From a virus: 57,938 nucleotides of DNA. Positions within the stretch are counted from its first letter, which is position 1. Each line of letters begins with the position of its first letter. The notes under the pieces are model-generated. The model had not been told where the DNA came from. It searched no databases and saw only the letters and a program-made list of their open reading frames with translations. Both the position numbers and the translations under genes were made by a program. Shown here in pieces: positions 1,613 through 54,064 of the stretch. The stretch is from positions 1 through 57,938 of the IMG/VR virus record IMGVR_UViG_3300037189_011821. One strand, written 5' to 3'.

Positions 1613-3481
1613 TTAATCTCCTCCTAATGCTAGAATAAATGGTGTTAATGTTGAAAATAAACTCTTAGAATAAAATGTTCCACTAATAGTTCCAGTTTGT
1701 TGATTTACAACAACACCATCACCAATTCTGAAGTTTCCTGATTGGTCTGTACTAGTGAAAACAACCAATCCACCATTTCTCATATCAGTTTCATTATCTT
1801 GAATAGGAACTCCTCCAGTAGATGGAAAAGCAGTATCAATATCAGTACCAGTTCCAATATATTCAAGAGAATGTCCAGATGCTAATACACGACTCTGTTT
1901 AAAGAAAGGAACCGTTGTTCCCACACCAACTGCATAAGGAACATTATCAGTTAATACAATTGTACAAATCCCAGCAGAAGAAACTGGAGTACAAGATTGG
2001 ATCGCATAATAAGTTGGAATTAATTTTACAGTAGCTGTTGCAGTATTTATTCCAACATCAGGGGTGCTAATTGTAACCGTTGGAATCGTTGAATAACCAC
2101 GACCACTGGATACAATTTCAATTCCAACTACAGAACCGTCTTTAACTTCTGCAACTGCCTGAGCAGGAACTCCCCAATCTGTTGATGGTGAACCTATTGT
2201 AACAACAGCATTTCCAGTGTACCCGGTTCCGCCAGAACTTACGACTATTTCTCCGACCGTATAATATAAATCACCAAAATAAACAACTTGACCATCAAAA
2301 GGTCTAATAATATTAGTTTTTACGGTTCCACCAGAAACATAAACTTGATCTGGCGTGGTTGAAATACCAACATTCACCGTAAACTGGTTTGCTGCTGGAA
2401 CAGATTTGACATCAAAAACATATCCATTTGTTCCACTTGGATATAAAGCAGTGGTTCCAGTACTTACACAACTAAATAACAAATTACTTAAACTTACTCC
2501 CATTCCAACAGTAAAGTTGTGGTTTGATGAAGTGGTAATAGTTGTTATGCCAGTTGCATTATTATAAACTGCTGTTGAAATATTATAGGTTGAAGCACTT
2601 AAGTTTACAACAAAAGTGTCACTATTTGCAGCTGCTGAACTTGTAATGATTCCTGTATATTTTCTTGGACCTATTCCATCAGCAACCAAAGCATAGTTTC
2701 CAAAAGAAGAGTTGGAGTTTGTTAAGTCGCAAGCACCACCAGAACCACAGAAAACTGCAATATCATTACAAATAGTGAATAATGAAACTAACTGGGCATA
2801 CCCTTCATTTGTGATTGAAACTCCAATACCATTTTGGTTGTATTGAGTAAATGAGTCTGTAACCATACTCCTGATAGGACCAAGAGCATTTTTTCCATCA
2901 ATCTTAAGTCCAATACTATTCTGAACAAAATTAGTACAGTTACGAATATATGGTGACTGATTGAAATATCTAACTTTTGTTGGATTAAATGCTGCTATTC
3001 CAAATCCAGGATCCATAGTTCCTGTGAAAGACATCTCAGTAATATAGTTTCCTGGAGCAACGTGAAATAAATCTTGATTGGAATTTAATGGAGTAACTGA
3101 TACCTCTCTTAAACTATCACCAACAATGCTAACTTGGGGTGGCAACTCAATAGGATTATCTTCTATATAAGATCCAGCAGCAACTCTAATAACCGTTCCT
3201 TCTGCTGATGCTGCGACTGCTGCTTTGATTGTTGCCTTGGCGTCTCCAAGTTTTTTTCCTGTGTTTGTATCGTTTCCGTCTTTTGTGACATATAAAACAT
3301 TAGTAACTGTTGTTCCAGCACCGATTCTTACAATATCAGTACCGATACCTGTTCTTTCTCTGCGGGCAAATAATTCGGCATCATAAGTATTTAAAGCTAG
3401 TTCCCCTGAAGGCAACTGTTCTACAGTTGGTCTCTTACCAGGGACTGCAGATCTTTTTATCCTAATATTTGGATCAGACAT
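1613..3481 (-). CDS. Beta-helix virion fibre protein (pectate-lyase-like fold), 622 aa
   Basis: Residues 1-45 contain RSAVPGKRP and LPSGELALNTYDAELF, an N-terminal segment typical of cyanophage structural proteins that attach to the virion. Residues 60-150 (LYVTKDGNDTNTGKKLGDAK, then GTVIRVAAGSYIEDNPI) are the usual entry to a right-handed parallel beta-helix. The rest is beta-rich with inserts, ending GTISGTFYSKSLFSTLTPF. It aligns end to end with the 1004-residue protein at 26482-29496 but is shorter. No catalytic polysaccharide-lyase residues could be assigned, so I call it structural. A GAGG ribosome site precedes the ATG, and a GTAAATA late-type element lies 15 nt upstream of it. Confidence 0.8.
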   Translation of the reverse strand: MSDPNIRIKRSAVPGKRPTVEQLPSGELALNTYDAELFARRERTGIGTDIVRIGAGTTVTNVLYVTKDGNDTNTGKKLGDAKATIKAAVAASAEGTVIRVAAGSYIEDNPIELPPQVSIVGDSLREVSVTPLNSNQDLFHVAPGNYITEMSFTGTMDPGFGIAAFNPTKVRYFNQSPYIRNCTNFVQNSIGLKIDGKNALGPIRSMVTDSFTQYNQNGIGVSITNEGYAQLVSLFTICNDIAVFCGSGGACDLTNSNSSFGNYALVADGIGPRKYTGIITSSAAANSDTFVVNLSASTYNISTAVYNNATGITTITTSSNHNFTVGMGVSLSNLLFSCVSTGTTALYPSGTNGYVFDVKSVPAANQFTVNVGISTTPDQVYVSGGTVKTNIIRPFDGQVVYFGDLYYTVGEIVVSSGGTGYTGNAVVTIGSPSTDWGVPAQAVAEVKDGSVVGIEIVSSGRGYSTIPTVTISTPDVGINTATATVKLIPTYYAIQSCTPVSSAGICTIVLTDNVPYAVGVGTTVPFFKQSRVLASGHSLEYIGTGTDIDTAFPSTGGVPIQDNETDMRNGGLVVFTSTDQSGNFRIGDGVVVNQQTGTISGTFYSKSLFSTLTPFILALGGD

Positions 3482-47344: not shown

Positions 47345-47352
47345 TATTTACC
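47345..47352 (-). promoter_or_regulatory. Possible late-type element (GGTAAATA)
   Basis: Minus-strand GGTAAATA overlapping the end of the 920-aa gene and 22 nt before the hub gene start, which has a AGGAG site. Confidence 0.35.
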
Positions 47353-50110
47353 TTGTATAATTGAAAGACATACTATCTTCAGATTCACCAAAACCAGAAG
47401 AAATAACAACTGGTTGTTGAGGAGAAGAAATTGGAATTGGAACTGGTATTAGTTTTTCATCAACTACTGCGTGTATAGTAGATCCTTGTTCATATTCAGC
47501 ATAAGACCTTAAGACTTTTATTGCACCATCATAGTTTGCTTTGTTGAGAGCATCCAAGAAACCAGGGAAATTCTTCTCTAATGCTGTTGTTGAATCAAGA
47601 TCAAGAACGTATTCTCCATGAGTTAGCATAGCGCGTATTTGATCAATACCCCGTTTTCCTTTGACCTTACCACCTCTCTTGTAAGCAACGTGAACGTGAT
47701 CGCTATGACCAGATGGTTCATTTTTTGCATGAAGTAGTTGTACTGGTTGAACACCTTTGAGTCGATTAAATTCAGCAATAACTTTAAGAATTTTTGCTTG
47801 CTCATTACTATAAGCACCAATATCAATTGCTCTACCTTTATAATGGTAGGAATTGCGAGCGTGAACTCCAGGAGGACCAACTCCACCATGCTCAGGATGC
47901 TCAGTAACTGCTTGAAAATCAGGACCTTGCTTCAGTTTTTGTTTAATATATCTACCCAATTCACCTGCTATTTTTCCACCAGCAGTTCCATAACCTTTTC
48001 CCAAAGGAATATCAACACCGGCACCAGCACCAGAACTAAAACTTGCTAAAGCGTCTGCAGCAAACTGATATCTTCTTGGGTAATTTGGAGTGCCAGCACG
48101 TTCCATCTCCCTTTCAAATATTTCAACTGCCCTTTTATAAGAAGACACACCTTTAATTCTATTATAAGTTCCATAGGATTTCATCTCTTTAACCATCCAC
48201 TCAACCTGAGTTTCAAGTGCCCAAGGATCCTTTCCAGAATTATTAGCCCAAGCAGTTAGAGAAGCCCATCTTTCAAATTCAGTCCACTGCATAATACCTC
48301 TACCTGGACCACCACCTAGTTGTTTTGATTTTGGATTGACTCCAGATTCCTGCATTAAGTTTCCAATAATACCAGCAGCAGCTTCTGGAGTAAATCCTTC
48401 AGTATCTACAAGATATCTGAAAACTTTTTCGGCATTAGTATTACCAACAAGTGTAGGAGAACCTGTTGATTCATCTTCAGCACCTGGACCCTCCCCTGGT
48501 TTTTTTCCACGGTCAATTTCTTTTAAACCAATCTGTTTTTTCAAATCATTAATAATATCCTCAACTTTTGGTGCAACACTATTTTGAAGTGCTTTAGCAA
48601 TAACATTTTTCATATCATCACCATTACTAAACATTCCAGCATCAACTTCTCCACCGCCAGCAAAAGCACCTCCAGTTCTTTGAATACCACCACCAAAAGT
48701 TCTCTGCATCCAAGAAGATAAACCATCAGCAGCATTTTGATAGTCAACATTCGATGGTTGTTCTCCAAGTTGAGCTTTCATAAAGATAGCTGCTATTCCA
48801 CCAAATCCAGGAACTGAAGATCCTATTTTATAGGAACTTTTCATATACCCAAGTGGGTTTACAGTATCAGCATCTTTTGTCTCAGTTTCTGGGAATATTT
48901 TTTTAATTTTATCTTCACCACCAACAGACTGACCAGGTTTAACTTCTGTTGTTTGTACTTTTATTGTTCTAGTTACTTTTGGTTTTTTTAATGTTCTTTT
49001 TATTGGACCAGTTAATTGACCACCTCTTGTGACTGAACCTCCACCTGCACGACCCTGAACCTTTTGCTGTTTTGGATCTTTGTTATTAAAGATCTTATCA
49101 TACAAAAGACCACCTAAAGCAGAACCACCTTCAGCACCAAGATACATTCCAATCGCAGTTCCAACTCCAGGAATAGGTATTAAACTTCCAAGAGCACCCC
49201 CAATCCAAGTCCCAAGACCACCACCAATACCCTTAAATGCTGCCTTACCTACAGGGTCTCCAGACATCCAGGAAAGAACAAATTCCATAATACCACCAAT
49301 AAGTGGTATCCTTTTTACTAAAGGTTTTACAATCTTTAATGCGGTTTTCGTTCCTCCTCTACCAAGAGTTGAAACTATTCCTTTTCTTGCAATATTTGTA
49401 ACTCCCGATCTTGCATATTTTCCGCCGCGTGGTGCAGCAGCAACATCAGGTTCTCCACCAGTATCACGAAGTTCTCCAAAGGCAATAGCACCAGCAATAG
49501 ATGCTAAAATCACCTTATCCATCGCATCAATAAAACCATCAAATGTCTTGGTGAAATTATCTCCACCAAGATCACCTAAAAACTTTCTGGTTTTATCGTG
49601 AACTTCGTATGCTTTATCAACAAAAGACACTAAACCATTTAATATCTTACCAGAAATATCAATAACAGTATCTTGAACTTTTATTATAGTTCCAACAATA
49701 CCAGCAAGTTTTGGAAGATATGGAAGTAAACGAAGTGAAATATAACCAAGAAAAATATTAAAAAGAAAACTTTTGATTCTATCAAGGAACCCTAACTTTG
49801 GTAATGCTGGAAGTGATGGTATTTTATCTTGTTTCTCTTTTGATTTCTCAAGTTTTTCTTCCTTTTCACCAAACCTTTTCTGTTCAGCAAGTTTTCTTTT
49901 TCTGTCTTCTTCTTTTGCTTTGAGTAAGGTATTTGTTTTAACCAGATCACTAATTTTTATAACCTGTTTTTTAATAACACCAAGTTCAAAAGAATGATCA
50001 CCACCAGCGATCGACTTGGCACTTATCTTTTTAACAGTAGTCGCTAATGAACTCCCACCTAAAAGTTTTGCTGGACTAATTTTTGCTTGAGGGAGTTGTT
50101 TAGGTGCCAT
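47348..50110 (-). CDS. Tape-measure-like protein with two cell-wall hydrolase domains, 920 aa
   Basis: The first 100 residues are coiled-coil and Lys/Glu-rich; 105-170 and 280-340 have hydrophobic tape-measure-like helices (LFNIFLGYISLRLLPYLPKL; GALGSLIPIPGVGTAIGMYL). Residues 555-690 match the phage tail lysozyme type (YLVDTEGFTPEAAAGIIGNL, MQESGVNPKS, GIMQWTEFERW). Residues 745-815 resemble an M15-like peptidase, with NSYHYKGRAIDIG and GHSDHVHVAY giving the H...D...HxH metal site. A tape-measure IDQIRAMLTHGEYVL motif is near 825. Likely ejected or exposed at tail contraction to breach peptidoglycan. Confidence 0.75.
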   Translation of the reverse strand: MAPKQLPQAKISPAKLLGGSSLATTVKKISAKSIAGGDHSFELGVIKKQVIKISDLVKTNTLLKAKEEDRKRKLAEQKRFGEKEEKLEKSKEKQDKIPSLPALPKLGFLDRIKSFLFNIFLGYISLRLLPYLPKLAGIVGTIIKVQDTVIDISGKILNGLVSFVDKAYEVHDKTRKFLGDLGGDNFTKTFDGFIDAMDKVILASIAGAIAFGELRDTGGEPDVAAAPRGGKYARSGVTNIARKGIVSTLGRGGTKTALKIVKPLVKRIPLIGGIMEFVLSWMSGDPVGKAAFKGIGGGLGTWIGGALGSLIPIPGVGTAIGMYLGAEGGSALGGLLYDKIFNNKDPKQQKVQGRAGGGSVTRGGQLTGPIKRTLKKPKVTRTIKVQTTEVKPGQSVGGEDKIKKIFPETETKDADTVNPLGYMKSSYKIGSSVPGFGGIAAIFMKAQLGEQPSNVDYQNAADGLSSWMQRTFGGGIQRTGGAFAGGGEVDAGMFSNGDDMKNVIAKALQNSVAPKVEDIINDLKKQIGLKEIDRGKKPGEGPGAEDESTGSPTLVGNTNAEKVFRYLVDTEGFTPEAAAGIIGNLMQESGVNPKSKQLGGGPGRGIMQWTEFERWASLTAWANNSGKDPWALETQVEWMVKEMKSYGTYNRIKGVSSYKRAVEIFEREMERAGTPNYPRRYQFAADALASFSSGAGAGVDIPLGKGYGTAGGKIAGELGRYIKQKLKQGPDFQAVTEHPEHGGVGPPGVHARNSYHYKGRAIDIGAYSNEQAKILKVIAEFNRLKGVQPVQLLHAKNEPSGHSDHVHVAYKRGGKVKGKRGIDQIRAMLTHGEYVLDLDSTTALEKNFPGFLDALNKANYDGAIKVLRSYAEYEQGSTIHAVVDEKLIPVPIPISSPQQPVVISSGFGESEDSMSFNYTR

Positions 50111-50119
50111 AATTGTTTA

Positions 50120-52270
50120 CTATGCGATACTATGAATATCAAGAATTCTTTTTCTTTCCTTATCAATACGAGCAGAACTAAATGAAGGTACTCTTGGAGC
50201 ACCAGGAGATCCTGGAATATTTACATTCTGTGCTCCAGAACTACTTACGGTTCTTACAACTACAGATGGTTTTGATGGTGGAGAAATATTTTTAAGATTG
50301 GTTGGTGTTTTTGATAACTTAGCTGGAACCATTCCACCTTTAGCATACTTAGGTTCCTTTGCTTGTGCTGGAGGAGAAACAATAGAACTAGCCTTACCAA
50401 TCATCGAAGAAAAACCAGAAGAAAGTCTATCAAATAAATTTGGTTGTTGTTTTGGTTTTGATGCTACCATTGTGGGTTGCTTCACTTTAGTCAAATCAGA
50501 AGGACCCGTACTCAGTAGTTTTCTCTCTTCATTAATTCTTGAAAGTGCTGGACCACCTCTGGTGGTATTTCTAGATGCCTCACTCATATTTCCAGCAATT
50601 AATGCTTTGGAAAACTTTGGATATGGACCCATAGGATCAATAGAATTTGGACCTGCATTATAAAGAAAAGAGACAACTGTTCCCTGTTGCTGGGGAGACA
50701 TCTTATTCCATAAAGGAAGTTTAGATTTTGCTAGTGGAATAAGTTGAGAAAGATGTCTAGTTAGAAGATTATCTGCTGCTGTTTTTGTGATTGGAGGATC
50801 ACCCATTTTAACCTTCTTAGAACCTTTCAATAGGTTATCATAATAAGTTGCTCCCCATCCAATAGTAGGAACATTAACACTATCTAAGTATGGATAAATT
50901 TTGGTTGAATTTGAAACATTTTTATATTCGGGACTCTTTACTGAAACATAATAATTTTGTCCTGGTCTTAATGAAGATAATGCTTCGTGATTCTTAATCA
51001 TATCACCAGCATAACCTATTAACCCACCACCAGCAGCATAAGGAACTCCACTAATCATCTTAGGTCTATTTGTTCCACCACCAGCAGCATTCATAGACTC
51101 CAGCGTATCTACTCCATACTTTTGAACTGCCCCACGAGACATAACAAATTCGCCATCACTCAACATCGCAGGTATCTTATCAACTCCTTTTTGACCCTTT
51201 ATGTGACCAGGACCTCCACCATAAAATCCAAATAACTTTTTAAGGTTTGCTAACCCACCACCAGAAAACGTAGGGGTTTTGGGTTTTTCTTCCTTTCCTC
51301 CACCAACAAATTTTTCAATACCACTACTTAATGCCATAGTGGTTCCAACAGTCGTTGCTACTTGTAACCCAGCAGCAACTAATCTTCCACCACGACCACC
51401 AAGAAATCTTGCTGCTCCTTTTGCGCCAAGCATACTGGCAACAACTTGAAGCAACTTTCGTGTACCAAAAAATACCAGTTTGGTAAATCCACCAACAAAC
51501 TTACCAAGACCAGTACCAAACCTTAAGTAAAGTGCTAAGAGTTTAGGCCAATGGTCACCAAAGAATCTGAATAAAGAATCGATTTTCTTTTTATTTGCTG
51601 GATCGGCAAACCAGTCTAAAAGTTTGAGGAATACTTTTCCCCAAAAGATTGCCATAAAGAAATCAATAATTCTTGATAATAATGATTTAATAGGAGCAAT
51701 AACTCTCTCTGCCGCTTTGATAGCAAACTTAAAACCTTTTTCTAAATTTGATTCTGCGACTGCTCTTTTAGCATTCTCTGCTTCTTTTCTAGATCTCTCA
51801 GTAGCGTCTTTTTGTGATTTGTTTTGCTGTGTTAAATTCTTAATAATCTCCGCAAGAAGATCTTTAATCTCAACAAAATCATCTCCTCCAGTCATCTTAT
51901 CGACCGCAGAAGGAAGAGCAAGTGGTCTGATACCTGTAAGAAGTTTTTTCTTGCCCAAGTTCATACCAACAGCAGTTCCCTTTTTGAAACTTGCTGCTGT
52001 AATTTTTTTAACTTTAAATCTACCGCTTTTACCCTTTATTCTTTTCCATTCATATGTGACCATTTCAATTTCTTCTGTAGGCATCGATGTTTTGGGCATC
52101 CTACCCTTTACCATCGCTTCCTTTAAAAGAGAAGAATATGTGTCATAATCAATATCAAAAACATCTTCTAACCCAAGTAATCTTAATATCCTTTCATCAA
52201 TTTTCTCATTGACTAAGGCACGACCATTCTTCGCTTTTGAGGGTACAATACTAGAAGAACTGATTGCCAT
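50120..52270 (-). CDS. Tape-measure-like protein with GH24 lysozyme domain, 716 aa
   Basis: N-terminal 200 residues are helical and charged; 200-330 has amphipathic helices (LLSRIIDFFMAIFWGKVFLK, FGTGLGKFVGGFTKLVFFGT). The motif KGVDKIPAMLSDGEFVMSRG (around 368-388) is common in tape-measure proteins. Residues 427-590 form a T4-type lysozyme: NHEAL (catalytic Glu near 431), YLDSVNVPTIGWGATYYD, LSPQQQ-like MSPQQQGTVVSFLYNAGPNS and SRINEERKLL. The C-terminus is Pro/Ser-rich. It follows the G/GT-like chaperone genes, the canonical tape-measure position. Confidence 0.8.
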   Translation of the reverse strand: MAISSSSIVPSKAKNGRALVNEKIDERILRLLGLEDVFDIDYDTYSSLLKEAMVKGRMPKTSMPTEEIEMVTYEWKRIKGKSGRFKVKKITAASFKKGTAVGMNLGKKKLLTGIRPLALPSAVDKMTGGDDFVEIKDLLAEIIKNLTQQNKSQKDATERSRKEAENAKRAVAESNLEKGFKFAIKAAERVIAPIKSLLSRIIDFFMAIFWGKVFLKLLDWFADPANKKKIDSLFRFFGDHWPKLLALYLRFGTGLGKFVGGFTKLVFFGTRKLLQVVASMLGAKGAARFLGGRGGRLVAAGLQVATTVGTTMALSSGIEKFVGGGKEEKPKTPTFSGGGLANLKKLFGFYGGGPGHIKGQKGVDKIPAMLSDGEFVMSRGAVQKYGVDTLESMNAAGGGTNRPKMISGVPYAAGGGLIGYAGDMIKNHEALSSLRPGQNYYVSVKSPEYKNVSNSTKIYPYLDSVNVPTIGWGATYYDNLLKGSKKVKMGDPPITKTAADNLLTRHLSQLIPLAKSKLPLWNKMSPQQQGTVVSFLYNAGPNSIDPMGPYPKFSKALIAGNMSEASRNTTRGGPALSRINEERKLLSTGPSDLTKVKQPTMVASKPKQQPNLFDRLSSGFSSMIGKASSIVSPPAQAKEPKYAKGGMVPAKLSKTPTNLKNISPPSKPSVVVRTVSSSGAQNVNIPGSPGAPRVPSFSSARIDKERKRILDIHSIA

Positions 52271-52430
52271 TAGATTGCTGTTGTTTTAGTTTTTCTTCTT
52301 CAAGATGCTGTTGTAATAAAGCAATATAGATGTCTCTTTCCCAAGGCATCATATTTTCAATCTCTGTCAAAGAATATTTATGATACTGCATCAAAGCAAA
52401 ATTAAGACGGAAATAACTCTCCAAGTCCAT
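52251..52430 (-). CDS. Small frame in -1 register of the gp26-like gene; probable frameshift extension
   Basis: From an in-frame ATG at 52428-52430 this reads 59 codons: MDLESYFRLNFALMQYHKYS, LTEIENMMPWERDIYIALLQ, then a Glu/Lys/Gln-rich tail, ending within the tape-measure gene start. The N-F-A-L...L.EIE.M.PWER.IY..LL.QH pattern is that of phage tail assembly chaperone C-terminal partners. The ATG has no ribosome site. The frame is open upstream in the -1 register through the slippery site at 52448-52454, so it is most likely expressed as an extension: the fusion would have 303 residues (238 shared + 65). Confidence 0.75.
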   Translation of the reverse strand: MDLESYFRLNFALMQYHKYSLTEIENMMPWERDIYIALLQQHLEEEKLKQQQSNGNQFF

Positions 52431-52454
52431 ATGGACTAGGGCTATGCGAAAAAA
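52421..52454 (-). promoter_or_regulatory. Probable programmed -1 frameshift site (recoding signal)
   Basis: On the minus strand the last codons of the gp26-like gene contain T TTT TTC (52448-52454), a standard -1 slippery heptamer in the correct phase, 3 nt before the zero-frame GCA TAG. After a 7-nt spacer there is a stem CC.AGTCC-ATAT-GGACT.GG (7 pairs around one T/T mismatch, 52421-52440). After slipping, the -1 frame has no stop until 52251. Confidence 0.8.
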
Positions 52455-53161
52455 CTTACTAACCCTTCTAAAACAACTTCACTCTCAACTTGAGTTTTTG
52501 GATTGGTCACGGAAATCTTATGAGAAAGTTTCGGCATAGTCTCAAAGAACTTTTCAATCTCTTTGAATTGTGCTGAATTCATTTGCTCTAAAAACTCAAC
52601 AAGTTCTTTTTTAGTCACATCAGCAGCAGCCCATACTTCATCTTCTGTATAAATCTTATCAATACAGGATGCAATTAGATCAAAGGATTGATCCATCGCA
52701 CTCGTATCATTAAAATCAAAATTGTTTTTAATGAATTGGTCTAATGAAGGATATTTCATTTCCATCATAATACTAGAATCAACCTTAATTCTATTACTAT
52801 GCTCTTCATTCTTTTGAACTTTGATATCATCTAGGTTCAAAGTAACTTTGGTAGTCGTTGTTTCATCGTCAGGGCAGATAATATTAACTTCTAGTTCTTC
52901 TCCAACTGCCTTACCACGAAGGTTAAGAAACAAGTATTCAATATCAAATGTCGGAAGTGTCTCTACTTTAATTCCCTTTGTAAGAACACAGTTTTTAATT
53001 ACATTTTTGATTGCGGTAGTAATCTGTTTTGTATCTTCACTTTCTAATGCGATAACTAAAACCTTCTCTTCTTTTACAAGAAAAGGTCTATAGTTTATTG
53101 TCTGTCCAGTTGATGGCAATTCCAACTCATATGTTGGTGTGGAGATCTTTGGTAAAGGCAT
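52442..53161 (-). CDS. 26: gp26-like baseplate hub / tail assembly chaperone protein, 239 aa
   Basis: The N-terminus (PTYELELPSTGQTINYRPFL, VKEEKVLVIALE) is the signature of the T4 gp26 (T4_baseplate) family: LPSTG near residue 16, a VKEEK motif and then a hydrophobic LLxALE segment. FDIEYLFLNLRGKAVGE near 90 is also typical. Length is somewhat above T4 gp26 (208). Ends LEGLVSFFA. It lies between a tube-like gene and the tape-measure gene, the classical position of the tail assembly chaperone G. Expression of a longer GT-like product by -1 frameshifting is predicted from its 3' end. The ATG has only a weak SD. Confidence 0.8.
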   Translation of the reverse strand: MPLPKISTPTYELELPSTGQTINYRPFLVKEEKVLVIALESEDTKQITTAIKNVIKNCVLTKGIKVETLPTFDIEYLFLNLRGKAVGEELEVNIICPDDETTTTKVTLNLDDIKVQKNEEHSNRIKVDSSIMMEMKYPSLDQFIKNNFDFNDTSAMDQSFDLIASCIDKIYTEDEVWAAADVTKKELVEFLEQMNSAQFKEIEKFFETMPKLSHKISVTNPKTQVESEVVLEGLVSFFA

Positions 53162-53188: not shown

Positions 53189-53196
53189 TATTTATC
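53189..53196 (-). promoter_or_regulatory. Late-type promoter (GATAAATA)
   Basis: Minus-strand GATAAATA at the stop of the 289-aa gene, 27 nt before the gp26-like ATG. One mismatch to the T4 late consensus. Confidence 0.5.
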
Positions 53197-54064
53197 AGGG
53201 GCCAAATATACTTCTCTCAGCAAAAGTTACTCTACCTACACCAGGGAGACCTGCTTCAACTCTTCTATCAACAGTATTGCCTGATGAATTTGCTGCAAAA
53301 TCAGGAACTCCACCAACATTAAATTGTGGGTTTTGAAACGTTGGATTATTTTGAAAATTATATCCATTAGCAATTGCTTGTTGTTGAGGATCACTCACAT
53401 ATTCTGGTACAAGTGAAACCTCAGAATTATTTTCAGGAGTAATAACGTATCTAATATAAGTCATAGATACAGTACATTTTAATAAACTTGAAGCATCATA
53501 AGAAACAGGCATTGATTGAATGCTAATTGGATAACTCTTAATAAATTCATAGGTTATGCTGTTTCCGCCAATATCAATATCTTTTTCAAACTTTGTAACT
53601 TTCAATCCCTGTGCAACATATGTGTTTGGATACCTAACTCTATAAAAATATTTTTCATCTCTGGATCCAACATTACCTCTCATTCTAGTATCATAGGCAA
53701 CACTTTCTCCACAAATATATTTAATCCATCCTTCAAAAAACAAAATTGGCAAATATTTCTCAGCATCAACATAAAAAGTAAAATCTATCCTATCATCATA
53801 AATTCTTCTGTGAGCATGTCTTTCAGTAACTCCAGTAAAATCATTATTAATTTCTAAAGTCGCTAATGAAGATCCTGGTAAAGATACTTCAGAACACAAT
53901 AAATTTAATTTATCTTGATCAACCAAAGACATCTTAAGAGTATTACTTTTAGAAAATACCGATTTTACTTCATTTGGAATAGGAATTTGAACCGCAAAAT
54001 GAGAAGTTAATGCGGGTCTAAGTAAATTAGATTTAATATTAGAGACTGACCTTGCCTTAGGCAT
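53195..54064 (-). CDS. Tail-tube/baseplate-tube-like protein (gp54-type), 289 aa
   Basis: MPKARSVSNIKSNLLRPALT and HFAVQIPIP, then LCSEVSLPGSSLATLEINND, YDDRIDFTFYVDAEKYLPIL, and FEGWIKYICGE form the tube-protein pattern (CxxxxLPG, then an edge strand, then RxxxDWxVxFxxD-like) of gp19/gp54-type proteins. TYEFIKSYPISIQSMPVSYD matches the C-terminal beta strands of that fold. At 289 aa it is longer than gp19 (163) and near gp54 (320), so a tail-tube initiator is the best guess. No ribosome site is seen; a TTTATAAATG element abuts the ATG, so leaderless or very short-leader expression is possible. Confidence 0.6.
   Translation of the reverse strand: MPKARSVSNIKSNLLRPALTSHFAVQIPIPNEVKSVFSKSNTLKMSLVDQDKLNLLCSEVSLPGSSLATLEINNDFTGVTERHAHRRIYDDRIDFTFYVDAEKYLPILFFEGWIKYICGESVAYDTRMRGNVGSRDEKYFYRVRYPNTYVAQGLKVTKFEKDIDIGGNSITYEFIKSYPISIQSMPVSYDASSLLKCTVSMTYIRYVITPENNSEVSLVPEYVSDPQQQAIANGYNFQNNPTFQNPQFNVGGVPDFAANSSGNTVDRRVEAGLPGVGRVTFAERSIFGP

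Follow-up and report, generated by a model that had tools for sequence, protein, structure and literature searches.

The viral DNA considered here is a window of 57,938 nucleotides, which is the whole stretch analysed (positions 1 to 57,938 of IMG/VR record IMGVR_UViG_3300037189_011821). On its minus strand it carries a gene of the T4 gp26 type (52442..53161) that ends in a slippery heptamer and is followed, in the -1 frame, by a second conserved coding segment. As judged from sequence comparison, and with a probability of about 0.93, the virus is T4-type and cyanophage-like, and the gene is its tail assembly chaperone (TAC), in which a -1 frameshift gives a short product, TAC-N, and a longer fusion, TAC-NC. 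The zero-frame protein of 239 amino acids (aa) matches PF12322 (T4_baseplate, the T4 gp26 family) with E = 1.5e-75 and 254 bits, compared to a curated cut-off of 24.5, and phrog_150 (baseplate hub) with E = 5.3e-80. Its hhalign alignment with T4 gp26 (E = 1.6e-14) extends through the terminal FF.

The 3' end of this gene reads GAA GGG TTA GTA AGT TTT TTC GCA TAG. The heptamer T TTT TTC (52448..52454, minus strand) lies in phase, and past it the zero frame holds a single sense codon, GCA, before the stop TAG (52444-52442). The -1 frame, CGC ATA GCC CTA GTC CAT ATG GAC ... TTC TTC TAG, is open for 65 codons (52448-52254) up to its own stop (52253-52251); this segment of the minus strand (52251..52448) is termed TAC-C. 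The predicted products are 239 aa for the zero frame and 238 + 65 = 303 aa for the frameshifted reading. An earlier note on this DNA had described the in-phase heptamer, the 65 open codons and products of 239 and 303 aa, all of which are borne out by the sequence.

The slippery site and the -1 frame

TTTTTTC is common in such DNA, so that the window alone is weak evidence and the comparison across relatives is decisive. The motif count was rejected as evidence for a frameshift, since TTTTTTC is under-represented in the window (22 observed, 35 expected). At least the observed count is reached in 99 of 100 shuffles, a scarcity compatible with avoidance of slippery runs. Among the 59 open reading frames (ORFs) of at least 100 aa in the window, the gp26-type gene is alone in having both an in-phase canonical heptamer among its last 10 codons and a -1 frame that continues beyond the stop.

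Once near-duplicates had been removed, 231 distinct related loci were left for comparison, and 226 of them carry an in-phase T TTT TTN within their final two codons. The relatives with the heptamer span to roughly 20-35% protein identity and comprise cyanophages as well as phages of Methylophilales, Aeromonas, Vibrio, Pseudomonas, Acidovorax, Rhizobium and Stenotrophomonas. Among 94 representatives, chosen at a cut of 90% protein identity, the Phe pair of the heptamer is encoded by TTT (93/93) and TTC (92/92), and no other codons of the gene are as strongly biased; the background share of TTC among Phe codons is 26% (219/854, in a 75-locus subset). The base preceding these codons is T throughout, although the codon that supplies it differs (TCT 37, AGT 36, AAT 1, GAT 1).

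The -1 frame is open for 53-68 codons beyond the stop in 231/231 loci, and its domain is conserved as protein (74 sequences). An accidental heptamer next to a decaying gp51 remnant that yields no product would agree with a motif frequency no higher than chance in the window. However, a domain that is open everywhere and conserved as protein, together with a heptamer conserved at the codon level, leaves that explanation next to no likelihood.

A 59-aa part of the -1 frame matches phrog_634 (gp51) with E = 7.6e-27, and the TAC-C profile aligns with residues 200-244 of T4 gp51 (hhalign E = 2.3e-5); the domain is that of the gp51 C-terminus. In T4 gp51, residues 1-201 match PF12322 and are followed in one frame by the C-domain; T4 gp26 matches PF12322 alone. 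Since T4 gp51 thus consists of a gp26-type domain and the same C-domain, gene 26 would correspond to TAC-N, and a frameshift in it would make TAC-NC.

Many GenBank records instead annotate the -1 frame as a separate small gene, gp51, which would use its own start or be coupled to the gp26 stop. In some lineages (Moby, VH7D, nt-1, Rhizobium) TAATG or TGATG does occur at the stop, in the Moby type with a Shine-Dalgarno (SD)-like site. Yet an SD-like site stands at the first possible start of the -1 frame in only 7 of the 231 loci, and the 59-codon ATG frame in the window has none, just as the earlier note had said. No ATG, GTG or TTG occurs in the first 35 nt past the stop in 67 of the 231, and a separate product would there lack the N-terminal part of the domain, which is conserved. 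A separate gene also leaves the invariant TTT-TTC codons unexplained, and in T4 this domain is fused to one of the gp26 type. Independent translation of gp51 is on these grounds quite improbable. The earlier note had proposed a programmed -1 frameshift in a gp26-like gene, with short and long products resembling lambda G and GT, to be checked in homologous genomes by looking for the in-phase heptamer and for a start and ribosome-binding site of the small frame. The 226 heptamers and the 7 SD-like sites both favour that proposal.

The short 'gp51' genes in cyanophage and vibriophage genomes would then mostly encode the latter half of a frameshift product, so that database entries need correction in their gene calls, start sites and lengths. 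Cyanophage gp51 has been described as about 20% of the length of T4 gp51 and as lacking its first 200 residues (PMC3037559), which is explained if it is the frameshifted C-domain half. The annotated lengths vary widely because gene callers choose arbitrary starts in the -1 frame. For example, the second half is entered as a separate gene of 26-62 aa in the records of loci L084, L085, L088, L089, L096, L097 and L111.

Elements flanking the heptamer

An SD-like element, GAAGGG (52463..52468, minus strand), lies 8 nt upstream of the heptamer and is formed by the codons for Glu232 and Gly233. In 119 loci of the clade these codons are GAG-GGN (88), GAA-GGG (28) or GAA-GGH (3). Alternative Glu-Gly codon pairs thereby keep GAGG or AAGGG at a distance of 8-9 nt upstream of the heptamer in 116 of the 119 close relatives. 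The usage departs strongly from background: GAG makes up 74% at Glu232 as opposed to 31%, and GGG follows GAA in 28/31 cases as opposed to 6%. The Glu codon has changed about 20 times on a tree built from the gene minus the SD-like region. Eight independent pairs drawn from this tree gave 6.1 concordant and 0.2 discordant Gly codons, with a borderline median p = 0.03 (range 0.016-0.22). The element is probably a clade-specific stimulator of slippage.

Downstream, the core of a hairpin, AGUCC-AUAU-GGACU (52424..52437, minus strand; outer pairs to 52440/52421), forms a 5-bp stem with the loop AUAU and begins 10 nt past the heptamer. The stem-loop of the earlier note is thus present; to arrive at its 7-nt spacer, the weakly conserved outer C-G pairs have to be included, along with a U.U mismatch. 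The arms covary in 75 sequences, with a score that none of 500 shuffles reaches and that is also above those of slid versions. The mean folding energy of the region in this clade is -9.7 kcal/mol, compared to -4.0 kcal/mol elsewhere in the gene. The hairpin overlaps coding sequence (V/I-H-M-D/N), so that part of the covariation may stem from constraint on the encoded protein. Like the SD-like element, it probably acts as a clade-specific stimulator. It was rejected as a universal part of the signal, since the S-RIM8, Melnitz and freshwater groups lack it.

Slippage might in principle be transcriptional, with the polymerase and not the ribosome slipping on the T run. The run has six T, and eight in part of the Melnitz group, which would favour such a mechanism. 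Transcriptional slippage usually requires longer runs, however. The run is mostly of six, its reading phase is always fixed and its end is usually exactly T TTT TTC/A/G; an SD-like element and a hairpin are, moreover, stimulators of ribosomes. Transcriptional slippage is accordingly rated very improbable, and ribosomal frameshifting remains the preferred mechanism.

The closest parallel in layout is E. coli dnaX, which shares the three parts of an upstream internal SD (PMC5600365), a slippery heptamer and a downstream structure. In dnaX the heptamer is A AAA AAG and the logic of the products differs. In the present clade all three parts occur and are constrained at the level of codons or base pairs, with a presumed role in slippage. 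The loci related to the present one form a natural series in which to compare the influence of SD-like elements and hairpins on a single slip site.

The proposed chaperone and the T4 gene pair

Most ribosomes would stop at TAG and release TAC-N, the gp26-type protein of 239 aa. In a minority, both tRNAs for Phe would slip back by one base on T TTT TTC to give TAC-NC (303 aa), that is, TAC-N with an added helical domain of 65 residues equivalent to the T4 gp51 C-terminus. The heptamer would be the core of the signal; in this clade the SD-like GAGG/AAGGG 8-9 nt upstream and the hairpin 10 nt downstream would raise slippage, as at dnaX. By analogy with lambda gpG/gpGT, TAC-N and TAC-NC may act in a fixed ratio, with TAC-N coating or holding the tape-measure protein and with tail tube subunits recruited through the C-domain of the less abundant TAC-NC.

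The gene order supports a function of the lambda type: a tail tube-type gene, TAC-N, TAC-C and a candidate tape-measure gene follow one another on the minus strand. The tail tube-type protein is encoded just upstream of TAC-N (53195..54064; PF23849 Phage_TTP_2, E = 1.8e-14; phrog_45 tail tube, E = 1.4e-33). The gene directly downstream (50120..52270) encodes 716 aa, with its ATG upstream of the TAC-C stop so that its start overlaps the end of TAC-C, and its position makes it a candidate tape measure.

A structure was also predicted for TAC-N, with a pLDDT of 86.6. The best-probability fold matches in the PDB include 2OB9 (0.57), 3FGX (0.28) and 3KLU (0.25), none of them significant; all three have been identified as TACs (PMC9603447). 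For TAC-C the fold search gave one match, which is meaningless. Searches of PDB sequences with gp51 and with the gp26-type profile gave no match, which is weakly compatible with what is expected of a TAC (absence from the virion, binding to the tape measure and tail tube, a ratio critical for tail length).

Several observations weigh against this interpretation. In five Ackermannviridae-type loci of the 231 the -1 domain is retained although the canonical heptamer is absent. An in-frame ATG stands 5 or 14 nt past the stop in many close relatives, and weak independent initiation of the -1 frame may take place at such sites. Among the slippery-site clades compared, the S-RIM8, Melnitz and freshwater groups have no hairpin, so that it is not required, and the tree-controlled test of the SD-like element is borderline. 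Foldseek matches of the TAC-N model to TAC structures have E values of about 0.9-6, and the TAC-NC fusion is a predicted product, read from the nucleotide sequence.

The number of gp26-type genes varies among T4-like phages. A whole-genome search with PF12322 in 19 genomes found one gene in 15 and two in four of T-even type (T4, 44RR, EC-F2 and G5211). T TTT TTN is present in 13 of the 15 single-copy genomes, the Ackermannviridae-type CBA120 and YC being without it. The pattern suggests that most phages with one gp26-type gene use a frameshift, and that those with two do not. In T4, gp26 is the TAC-N domain and gp51 the TAC-N domain with TAC-C, as in the products proposed here. Unlike the present case, these are two separate genes with no slippery site, and T4 gp26 has no remnant of one, its sequence being GAG TTC TTT. 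In an unrooted tree with long branches, a branch (98/97) separates the gp26 and gp51 copies from the single-copy genes. Because the frameshift is so widely spread, a duplication may have replaced an ancestral frameshift in T4.

The fuller account joins a dnaX-like signal of three parts in this cyanophage clade (the SD-like element kept by alternating Glu-Gly codons, the invariant T TTT TTC and the covarying hairpin) with a heptamer shared by other single-copy T4-type lineages, stimulators that turn over, and T4 genes 26 and 51 as a duplication that replaced the frameshift. Taken as a whole, it is considered somewhat more probable than not.

The Ackermannviridae-type gp26 genes without the heptamer (Vibrio K364, K483 and YC; CBA120; Klebsiella May; loci L091, L092, L094, L105 and L106) have in common NTT TTY, placed one codon ahead of the last, and some have TAATG at the stop. 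In the pseudo-T-even Enterobacter phage EC-F2 (L108, 2501-3794) the fused gp51-type and the short gp26-type genes adjoin on the same strand, whereas the T4 pair is divergent. In Acinetobacter phage ZZ1 (L110, ~2500-3255) a T run divides the gp51 frame into two overlapping coding sequences, annotated under one name, either through a sequencing error or through a real shift.

Related systems and neighbouring genes

A frameshifted TAC is standard in long-tailed phages, and the signal described here is unusually well documented across relatives. Reviews have singled out T4 as the exception to the otherwise conserved frameshift in tail genes (PMC5009743). The earlier note knew of no such frameshift in T4-type hub genes, which was wrong: T4-like TAC genes were identified by Vladimirov, Gautam & Davidson in 2022 (Virology 566:9-15), as cited in PMC10885494 and PMC12846349. 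PMC12846349 credits that study with the polyT slip signals of T4-like TAC-N genes, and PMC10885494 cites it for T4-like phages with a separate short copy and a fused long copy of the TAC. As far as these citing papers represent them, the published T4-like TACs would belong to the same gene family as the present one. Compared with the 2022 work as reported there, the details of the signal and the turnover of the stimulators are possibly the new part.

Among other TACs, lambda gpG/gpGT and the P2 type resemble the present system in that a small share of ribosomes shifts (PMC5009743 for lambda), as proposed here, and in that the site lies between tail tube-type and tape-measure genes, the latter putative here. 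The heptamer in the present gene is T TTT TTC, with an SD-like element and a covarying hairpin in this clade, and the likeness drawn here is one of layout. The TAC locus of the Vandenendeviridae/Andersonviridae, described for phage Adele (PMC12846349), is similar in that TAC-N ends in a conserved -1 shift and that the frame downstream has been mis-annotated as a separate gene. Its motif is GTTTTT, in contrast to T TTT TTC here.

The 716-aa candidate tape-measure protein has a lysozyme domain (Phage_lysozyme, E = 5.9e-10) and weak matches to tape-measure PHROGs, the best at 2.6e-5; similarity to T4 gp29 was not detected. The next gene on the same strand (47348-50110) encodes 920 aa and shares a region with the 716-aa gene (hhalign probability 96%, E = 2e-9). 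The lysozyme-type domains of the two differ; both proteins carry a motif known from tape-measure proteins, and either is a candidate for the tape measure.
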